Of a DNA stretch of 47,521 bases, positions 35,436 through 37,094 are shown piece by piece. A program made the position numbers and the translations under genes. Numbering within the stretch: the first letter of the stretch is position 1; the number at the start of each line of letters is the position of its first letter. Source of the stretch: Halorubrum coriense DSM 10284 (GTDB lineage: Archaea; Halobacteriota; Halobacteria; Halobacteriales; Haloferacaceae); NCBI RefSeq assembly GCF_000337035.1, contig NZ_AOJL01000060.1:238415-285935 (forward strand), read 5' to 3'. The notes under the pieces are model-generated. The model was not told where the DNA came from, made no database searches, and saw only the letters and a program-made list of their open reading frames with translations.

Positions 35436-35501
35436 GGTCGGAGCGACGCCGGCGACGCTGAAAGCGGTTTCGTCGCCGGGCGCGACGACCGCGCGGCGGC
35501 G

Positions 35502-35975
35502 TCACTCGCGGTCGATCAGGATCCGGTCCCCGGGGTCGACGCCGTGGCGCTCGCTCCACCCGCGGGGCACTTCGAGGACGTACCGGCCGGTCCCCTCGTA
35601 GCGGGTGAGCGGTCCCGACTCCGGTTCCGCCTCGTGGACCGTCGTGACGGTGCCGTCGGCGTCGACGAAGACGATGTCGATGGGGAACGCCATGTCGCGC
35701 ATCACGTAGGCGCGCTCCGCGACGTCGCCGTGGACGAACAGCATCCCCTCGCCCGCGTCGAGGTCGTCGGTCGCGGAGAGCCCGACGTACTGTTTCAGGA
35801 GCCCGTCTGCGACCCGGGCCTCGACGGTCGCGAGCGACTCGCCGGTGTCGCCGTCGACGGCCTCGACCGTGGCGGTGTCGTAGCCGGTGACGAGGAGCGC
35901 CGGGTTCGTCGCGGCGACGGCGACGCCGGCGAGGAGGACGAGCGCGGCCGCGGCCCCGACGAGACGGCGGTTCAC
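35502..35975 (-). CDS. DUF192 domain protein
   Basis: The protein has 157 residues. A signal-like hydrophobic segment (4-22) is followed by the DUF192 fold: VEARVADGLLKQYVGLSATD, GEGMLFVHGDVAERAYVMRD, AFPIDIVFVDADGTV and YVLEVPRGWSERHGVDPGD. The family is widespread, probably secreted or membrane-anchored here, and has no settled function. Confidence 0.83.
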   Translation of the reverse strand: MNRRLVGAAAALVLLAGVAVAATNPALLVTGYDTATVEAVDGDTGESLATVEARVADGLLKQYVGLSATDDLDAGEGMLFVHGDVAERAYVMRDMAFPIDIVFVDADGTVTTVHEAEPESGPLTRYEGTGRYVLEVPRGWSERHGVDPGDRILIDRE

Positions 35976-36036
35976 GGGCGGGGTTCGCGGCGCGGAAGGA
36001 AATCGTTTTCCGCTCCCGGCGGGTTCGAACGGGTGA

Positions 36037-36110
36037 GGGCTCGTGGTCTAGCTGGTTATGACGCGGCCTTTACAAGGCTGAGATCGGCGGTTCGAACCCG
36101 CCCGAGCCCA
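36037..36110 (+). tRNA. tRNA-Val (UAC anticodon)
   Basis: The 74 bases fold as a full cloverleaf: acceptor GGGCTCG/CGAGCCC, a GTC...GAC D stem, anticodon stem CGGCC/GGCTG around loop TTTACAA, and T arm GGCGG-TTCGAAC-CCGCC. The discriminator is A. The anticodon TAC reads GUA valine codons. CCA is not encoded. The 3' end is duplicated 122 bases downstream. Confidence 0.95.
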
Positions 36111-36114
36111 CTTC
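36089..36114 (+). repeat. Direct repeat copy 1: 3' end of tRNA-Val (attachment-site-like)
   Basis: A 26-base stretch covering the T arm, acceptor 3' strand and four bases beyond the tRNA is repeated exactly at 36211-36236. Such a duplication of a tRNA 3' end is the mark left by integrases that recombine in tRNA genes. Confidence 0.8.
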
Positions 36115-36210
36115 GCTGTCGCGAACACACCGTGAGCGACAGCGGTGTGCGTGTCTGAGGGGCGGGTTCGAAGCAGGGAACGGAGCGAGCGCAGCGAGCG
36201 GAGTGAGTGA

Positions 36211-36236
36211 GGTTCGAACCCGCCCGAGCCCACTTC
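36211..36236 (+). repeat. Direct repeat copy 2 of tRNA-Val 3' end
   Basis: This is the second exact 26-base copy. The 96 bases between copies hold competing hairpins (36114-36122 with 36136-36144; or 36126-36132 with 36143-36149), an inverted T-arm fragment GGCGGGTTCGAA at 36160-36171, and a GAGCGAGCGCAGCGAGCGG tract. A further inverted fragment is at 36019-36030. No integrase gene is in the window. Confidence 0.75.
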
Positions 36237-36278
36237 CTGCGGCGAGCAACTCCGCGAGCCGCAGGTACGGAGGGACGC

Positions 36279-37094
36279 TCAGAGGTCGTCGGCGTCGAAC
36301 TTCAGCAGGCCGGCGAGCGGCGGCGCGAGCGTCCAGAAGACCAACATCGCGGCCGCGGAGAGCTGCTGGTTCGCGGTGTCGCCGCTGAACAGCTGTTCGC
36401 CGAGGAACGCGTTCGACAGCGCCTCGACGGCGGTCGTGGGATTCGAGGCGCGGAGGAACACCCGGATCTGCGCCGCCGACACCGGAAGGGCGTCGACGAC
36501 GGGACCGGCGGCTCCGACGAGGCGGCCGGTGATCGCGCCCCACAGCAGGACGAAGAGGACGTATATCGCGACGCCGGCGATGAGCGCGCGGCGCTGGGTC
36601 GCGGACGCCGCCGAGCAGCCGACGGCGATGGCGACGAAGACGACGCCGAGCGCGGCCGCGAAGACGGTGTAGCCGAGGAACGCGCCGGCGTTGAAGACGA
36701 CGGGCGCGGCGATCAACACGAGCGCGGGCAGGAGGAAGCCGGCGAACACCGCGAGCGCGAGCGCCGCGGCGCGGCCGGCCACTTTTCCGAACACCACGTC
36801 GGCCCGCGAGTGCGGCAGCGATAAGAGCAGCTTCAGCGAGCCGGACTCGCGCTCGCCGCTCACGGCGTTGTAGCCGACGACGACGCCGACGAGCGGGACG
36901 AGCGTCGTCACGAGGAAGGGCCCGATGAAGACGCTCAACAGCACCTCCGTGGCGAACTGCTCGCTCTGGCCGGTGGGCCGGACGGCGTACGCGAACGCGG
37001 CGACGAGCAGCGAGAACAGCACCACCAAGGCGATCATGCCGCGGGACTGAACGGTCTCTTGGAAGTCCTTCCGGGCGATCGCGGCGAGGCTCAT
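36279..37094 (-). CDS. ABC-2 type transporter permease (NosY-like)
   Basis: The protein has 271 residues and about six membrane segments. The pattern ARKDFQETVQSRGMIALVVL, then GYNAVSGERESGSLKLLLSL, is typical of ABC-2 permeases that export or process small molecules or membrane components. It overlaps the ATPase stop by 4 bases, so the two form one unit. Substrate is unknown. Confidence 0.87.
   Translation of the reverse strand: MSLAAIARKDFQETVQSRGMIALVVLFSLLVAAFAYAVRPTGQSEQFATEVLLSVFIGPFLVTTLVPLVGVVVGYNAVSGERESGSLKLLLSLPHSRADVVFGKVAGRAAALALAVFAGFLLPALVLIAAPVVFNAGAFLGYTVFAAALGVVFVAIAVGCSAASATQRRALIAGVAIYVLFVLLWGAITGRLVGAAGPVVDALPVSAAQIRVFLRASNPTTAVEALSNAFLGEQLFSGDTANQQLSAAAMLVFWTLAPPLAGLLKFDADDL

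Follow-up and report, generated by a model that had tools for sequence, protein, structure and literature searches.

A repeated tRNA-Val 3′ end in Halorubrum coriense

The stretch of DNA analysed here (hereafter the window) comprises 47,521 nucleotides (nt) of contig NZ_AOJL01000060.1 (C60) of Halorubrum coriense DSM 10284 and contains a tRNA-Val(TAC) gene, at 36037–36110 according to Rfam and 36037–36111 according to ARAGORN, behind which the 3′ end of the gene is repeated in a short array of hairpins. All coordinates are positions of the whole window, and the tRNA and the array features lie on the forward strand. The tail of the tRNA, from the T-loop to the discriminator (36090–36110), is the template for a 26-nt direct repeat, whose first copy (36089–36114) lies within the tRNA 3′ end and just beyond it and whose second copy, the tail copy, occupies 36211–36236. 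This repeat had been reported in an earlier note, made from the sequence alone, and we confirm it: the copies are identical at 26 of 26 positions, start 122 bases apart and leave 96 bases between them. A perfect 26-nt match so close by is far more than chance would produce.

The 96 bases contain a strong hairpin, an inverted piece of the T-arm and a further segment, module B. The hairpin (hairpin A, type A1, 36114–36144) has a 9-base-pair (bp) stem and an apex (CGAAC..GTGAG) that, by our own reading of the motif, would form tandem G.A mismatches. The inverted piece GGGCGGGTTCGAA (36160–36172) is complementary to the tails on both sides and could pair with either, and module B (type B1, 36173–36210) runs from there to the second tail. 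Together with the tail copy these parts make up a unit of 122 bp (36111–36232, with boundaries ambiguous within the repeat), and 3′ of the second tail stands a terminal hairpin A of type A3 (36236–36265). Hairpins with the A apex and at least five stem pairs occur twice in the window, at 36114–36144 and 36236–36265, with 0.1 expected under a first-order Markov model. The earlier note had also drawn attention to two inverted T-arm fragments. Both are present, at 36018–36030 and 36160–36172 and 13 nt long each, and only the downstream one belongs to the conserved layout described below; the upstream one was rejected as part of the unit because only 4 of 30 tRNA-Val loci, counting that of the window, keep it at no more than one mismatch. 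In an Rfam search of 35500–36800 only the tRNA scored above the gathering threshold. The array is neighboured by a DUF192 gene upstream of the tRNA and by an ABC-2 permease gene on the opposite strand from 36279.

The tRNA-Val locus in related genomes

The exact 22-nt Val tail was found in 74 of the 293 genomes of the order, and 33 genomes contained at least two such tails, arranged in tandem at 101–147 bp in 30 of the 33 by hand count. Exact tails lay 23.7 kilobases (kb) apart in genome G122, 35.2 kb apart in G179 and on two contigs in G223. Among 30 Val loci (L056–L085), counting tails with up to four mismatches and including that of the tRNA itself, one tail was present in 6 loci, two in 16, three in 5 and four in 3, the unit counts being uncertain for two Halorubrum assemblies with adapter-like stretches in the array. 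The spacing of the tails had a median of 122 bp and a range of 67–169. The interval between tRNA-Val and the permease was 44 bp with one tail, 159–185 with two, 271 with three and 421–424 with four, as measured in the 8 of 19 loci that have the permease within 500 bp (in 10 it was not found, and in L066 it lies at 1559 bp). In G257, a relative with one copy, a diverged form of the window's terminal A3 hairpin follows the tRNA directly, and thus the window differs by an extra unit of 122 bp at 36111–36232; this empty-site comparison rests on the sequences themselves, the MAFFT alignment misplacing the G257 flank. Inner tails were better kept than the last tail of an array (mean of 0.09 versus 1.0 mismatches, P=0.007, n=11 and 8, non-independent).

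The earlier note had proposed to look in relatives for an island ending in the same 26 bases. In G122 and G179 islands lie between the distant Val tails mentioned above. No element was found between neighbouring tail copies in the 30 Val loci examined, and the G179 island lies on the tRNA side of its array, the position in G122 being ambiguous. Nor do all relatives carry the same short duplication free of any insertion, which the note had named as the outcome that would speak for a functional repeat: copy number varies, and some relatives have islands.

Two pairs of Val arrays were identical, namely L067 and L087 (Halorubrum saccharovorum) and L061 and L116 (Halorubrum cibi). Stretches of N and AGATGTGTATAAGAGACAG, the latter presumably a Nextera transposon end, were observed inside the arrays of L063, L067 and L087 and are probable assembly chimeras. 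In L171 (G236), genes for a methylase and an MjaI-type restriction endonuclease (851–2676) lie between the tRNA-Val array and the permease, and a methylase-like stretch is likewise found there in L066. Restriction-modification genes were rejected as cassettes of the array, since no tail closes the far end in G236.

Layout and distribution of the units

The order of parts is tail, hairpin A, inverted T-arm piece, module B and tail, and the orientation is fixed relative to the tRNA. In most cases hairpin A starts a few nt past the discriminator. Its stem is variable, and its apex has the form C-GA-RC-loop-GY-GA-G. In 111 Val-array sequences, which are non-independent, the nine stem positions nearest the apex were Watson-Crick paired in 65–94% of cases with several pair types, compared with 3–44% in a control in which one side was slid by one base. 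The apex together with an unbroken 4-bp stem was present in only 52 of the 89 distinct A modules; most of the others have the apex motif with a stem mismatch, as judged by eye. We assigned A and B types by regular expressions under names of our own, leaving many units as 'other', and found 31 A–B combinations in 99 distinct units, so that A and B types combine freely. After the first hairpin in L065 and L081, palindromes lacking B stand in place of the inverted piece, module B and tail, that of L081 being a longer fold-back palindrome; these are possibly empty or fold-back units.

In the scar of a tRNA-integrated element the bases between the two repeats would be expected to be peculiar to the locus, but A and B modules turn up at many different tRNAs. 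Within the order, 36 of 293 genomes, from families f1, f4 and f7, contained the B2 pattern, and 0 of 293 a reversed control pattern. Copies of B2 were read at 30 loci (L136–L165), beyond which more matches exist; 32 of the 33 copies read, at 15 tRNA species, were flanked by an inverted T-arm piece and by the tail of the upstream tRNA, and the 33rd belongs to an array displaced by 12 kb by a provirus. Of the 21 positions in a tail copy, 20.2 on average agreed with its own tRNA and 13.5 with the tails of other tRNA species (n=32). The inverted piece showed a weak preference of the same kind, with 9.75 of 13 positions for its own tRNA versus 8.57 for other species (n=32). In a permutation test of the own-tRNA match, for the tail or the inverted piece, 0 of 5000 permutations reached the observed totals. 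The A1 hairpin was found in 39 of the 293 genomes, in families f1, f4, f5, f6 and f7. Its copies were read at L006 and L183–L211, with more matches existing elsewhere, and 25 of these 31 lie 3′ of a matching tRNA acceptor end as scored by script, while 5 of the other 6 stand behind tail-like sequence as judged by eye. In a sample of the phylum, A1 occurred in 12 of 294 genomes, all of them among the 53 of the order, and in 0 of the 241 others (a split counted by hand). On plasmids there was a single weak match to the B2 consensus, on a plasmid of Natronorubrum bangense.

Tail copies across the tRNA genes of single genomes

We also surveyed how many tRNAs of a genome have copies of their own tail, taking as tail the 21 nt of each gene from the T-loop GTTCRA to the discriminator and as copy a match with up to four mismatches within 500 nt. 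In H. coriense, 43 of 44 Rfam tRNA matches were usable and six intron-type ARAGORN predictions were omitted. A copy was present downstream of 16 of the 43 tRNAs and, in the upstream control, of 1 of the 43, the sole upstream match belonging to the second of two tandem tRNA-Asp genes. For the first of these the nearest match is the second tRNA-Asp gene itself, and further copies are present as well. Tails of other tRNA species matched 40 of 1798 regions of the same kind. Single genomes of four other families, in which tRNAs lacking a recognisable T-loop or having short flanks were omitted, gave own-tail copies for 15 of 49 (f7), 14 of 28 (f4), 10 of 29 (f12) and 2 of 28 (f17) tRNAs, the corresponding upstream control counts being 2, 0, 0 and 0; two of the f7 matches fall within dense clusters of tRNAs and may reflect adjacent genes instead of units.

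Islands at tRNA genes

Behind tRNA-Arg(TCT) of H. coriense stands an element of ∼12 kb that encodes a DUF1424 replication protein as well as a tyrosine integrase, the integrase being 60.9% identical to that of 'Saline Natrinema sp. J7-1 virus 2', which we take to be SNJ2. Past this element, a truncated tail leads to a stretch resembling a hairpin, and an inverted piece, B2 and a complete tail follow in that order; next to this array lies a related defective element, of which the left end and a portion of the replication gene are present (∼3.3 kb of similarity). There are thus two tandem, related SNJ2-like proviruses, the second of them defective, at this tRNA (G000:C18:8310 to ∼23600; L172 and L173); either the second used the tail of the array or the unit arrived later. 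At tRNA-Leu(TAG) of the same genome, an island of ∼20 kb (G000:C32:89925–110463; L012 and L051), with its integrase at C32:109351, stands between the gene now in place and an older, degraded copy. The two-unit array of the older copy matches the old tail exactly and does not match the new one, and the 3′ part of the present tRNA was apparently delivered by the island. The end of the G179 island is followed by a truncated tail and then by hairpin A, inverted piece, module B and tail, whereas the far end of the G122 island adjoins a B-like module with a tail and then a further unit, and this island may lie inside a unit. Both islands have integrase genes at their far ends. All four islands sit at the tRNA itself, and three of the four lie clearly between tRNA and array, G122 being the ambiguous case. 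The array therefore looks older than the island in these three, and such islands do not explain the arrays.

The H. coriense genome contains 12 matches to PF00589, none of them on the contig of the window (C60), and 3 matches to PF01797 (Y1 transposase), which lie on contigs C61 and C63 and are unlinked to the tRNA-Val array. Dense clusters of many weakly scoring tRNA genes were observed on two replicons of G208 (C1:6995–11080 and C2:586079–588480); dense clusters of weak tRNA genes are also a feature of tailed haloviruses.

Origin of the arrays

The tRNA-Val repeat is one unit of a widespread family of hairpin cassettes that are stacked behind many tRNA genes of haloarchaea. Units of one layout and fixed orientation at many tRNA species in several families, freely combined A and B modules, copy numbers that differ within one and the same gene neighbourhood and locally matching tails are what has been observed, and our tentative reading, which we hold with slightly less than even confidence, is that the arrays are small non-autonomous mobile cassettes targeting tRNA 3′ ends. 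A cassette would enter at the tRNA 3′ end and restore that end, the tail would serve as recombination site, and the enzyme might be supplied in trans by the tyrosine integrases of tRNA-targeting proviruses or by a hairpin-recognising recombinase. The units would themselves move, rather than merely being spread by recombination between arrays, and modules would be swapped between the arrays of different tRNAs. It should be noted that the same modules occur with different, locally matching tails, and hence either such module exchange or copying of the local tail on entry is needed.

Several points weigh against mobility of the cassettes. Simple site-specific recombination at the tail does not readily account for the same modules standing with different tails, and the inverted piece fits its own tRNA species best, or ties for best, in only 13 of the 32 cases. 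No mobilising enzyme was identified, and no viral carrier emerged from an IMG/VR search with four patterns (Val tail, B2, A1 and A2), which gave 0 matches. Excised forms were not observed, and the collections, with one genome per species, revealed no gain of a unit at strain level. Growth of the arrays from the tRNA-proximal side found no support in the order of modules (B1 stands last in 5 of 7 cases versus 20 of 48 for other types, P=0.23). Furthermore, conserved hairpins would fit a functional RNA too.

The last point leads to an explanation that we regard as rather unlikely, namely that the arrays are selected structured RNA or DNA elements at tRNA 3′ ends, for example 3′ trailers affecting maturation, transcript stability or transcription. 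Their fixed orientation, the paired changes in the A stem and the common tandem-GA apex agree with this, as does a precursor RNA that folds more stably than shuffled sequences (z −3.5); when the motif is loosened, the apex is also seen at 3 of 34, 3 of 14, 8 of 26 and 0 of 19 tRNAs of the other families that lack a tail copy. However, in H. coriense only the 16 of 43 tRNAs mentioned above have a tail copy and all 27 others are without an apex hairpin in the first 120 nt; copy number at one locus ranges from 1 to 4, and the lowest-energy predicted fold of the precursor pairs the T-arm of tRNA-Val itself with the inverted piece, a diversion that would be harmful. We give a similarly low probability to recombination without any mobile element, in which units would arise at the palindromic T-arm, through unequal exchange or a switch of template, and homologous recombination would carry them from array to array. 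The alternation of direct and inverted T-arm pieces, the B-less palindrome of L065, the longer fold-back palindrome of L081 and the mosaic of A and B combinations are what such a process might leave, but the same A and B modules with consistent boundaries behind many tRNAs of several families argue against it. Somewhat less probable still is a new, integron-like class of archaeal array, in which gene-less cassettes would be captured at tRNA 3′ ends by a recombinase as folded strands and many tRNA genes would act as platforms with tails of their own sequence. The folded strands would then be hairpin A with its tandem-GA apex plus module B, with T-arm pieces, direct and inverted, as their limits.

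Two explanations start from integrated elements, and both appear improbable. The arrays might persist as decoys or reserve attachment sites that protect the tRNA against integrases, since at tRNA-Arg(TCT) the left end of the second, defective provirus adjoins the array's own tail copy; this case is explained equally well by a unit added later between tRNA and second provirus, and the position of all four islands at the tRNA itself speaks against decoys, so we consider this role quite doubtful. The least probable reading is the scar of a lost element proposed in the earlier note, with the two 26-mers as the cores of attL and attR and the 96 bases as leftover. Part of that proposal stands: the direct repeat is of a tRNA tail of the type used by integrases, islands with integrases do join at tRNA tails, and the far end of the G122 island adjoins a B-like module and a tail. 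Yet the 96 bases belong to a conserved, modular type of hairpin unit that recurs at many tRNA species and in several families and varies in copy number among relatives, and their origin as the leftover of one lost element is not supported; the close tandem spacing in 30 of the 33 genomes with at least two exact Val tails and the three islands between tRNA and array tell against it as well.

If our reading of mobile cassettes is right, a sizeable share of haloarchaeal tRNA genes harbour a fast-changing repeat family at the 3′ end, amounting to 7–50% of the tRNA genes in the five sampled genomes and at no less than a third of them in three. It would matter for site choice by tRNA-targeting viruses and plasmids, for tRNA 3′ processing, for genome assembly and for how tRNA fragments are annotated, and the arrays would offer a natural test system for the movement of hairpin DNA in archaea.

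Comparison with known systems

This hairpin-cassette family is apparently undescribed: no description of such arrays was found in the literature searched, subscription journals lying mostly outside that search. The REP, BIME and REPIN sequences of bacteria are short, clustered, non-coding hairpins, and REP sequences are mobilised by a REP-associated Y1 transposase; the units described here differ in being tied to tRNA 3′ ends, in their tRNA-matched tails and in showing no linked transposase. The GC clusters or double-hairpin elements of fungal mitochondria are GC-rich paired hairpins that seem to move, in another compartment than the haloarchaeal units, and we know of no tRNA-tail duplication among them. 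Integron gene cassettes are arranged in tandem, are bounded by a recombination-site repeat with folded sites and carry genes, with the integrase gene adjacent. The haloarchaeal units are likewise tandem and bounded by a repeat resembling a recombination site, with folded sites, but 122 bp leave no room for a typical gene and no integrase lies beside the array. CRISPR spacers are unique, whereas the intervening modules here are common to loci and species.

Archaeal integrases use tRNA 3′ tails of this kind (PMC8371274), and tRNA-tail duplications in the known cases bound integrated elements of kilobase scale (PMC3119063, PMC9897764 and PMC8371274). The likeness is that a tRNA gene has its 3′ end directly repeated; the difference is that here recurring hairpin modules of ∼100 bp stand in tandem. 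The closest known elements are the small mobile repeats SMR-A of Haloquadratum walsbyi, non-coding sequences of ∼110 bp with palindromic targets and a mobilisation that their authors call 'enigmatic', which insert without target duplication into a PATE or an IS605-type palindrome (PMC3119063). Like them, the units reported here are haloarchaeal, non-coding and of comparable length (122 bp, the median spacing of Val tails also being 122); unlike SMR-A, they lie at tRNA 3′ ends, repeat the tail of the tRNA and form arrays.
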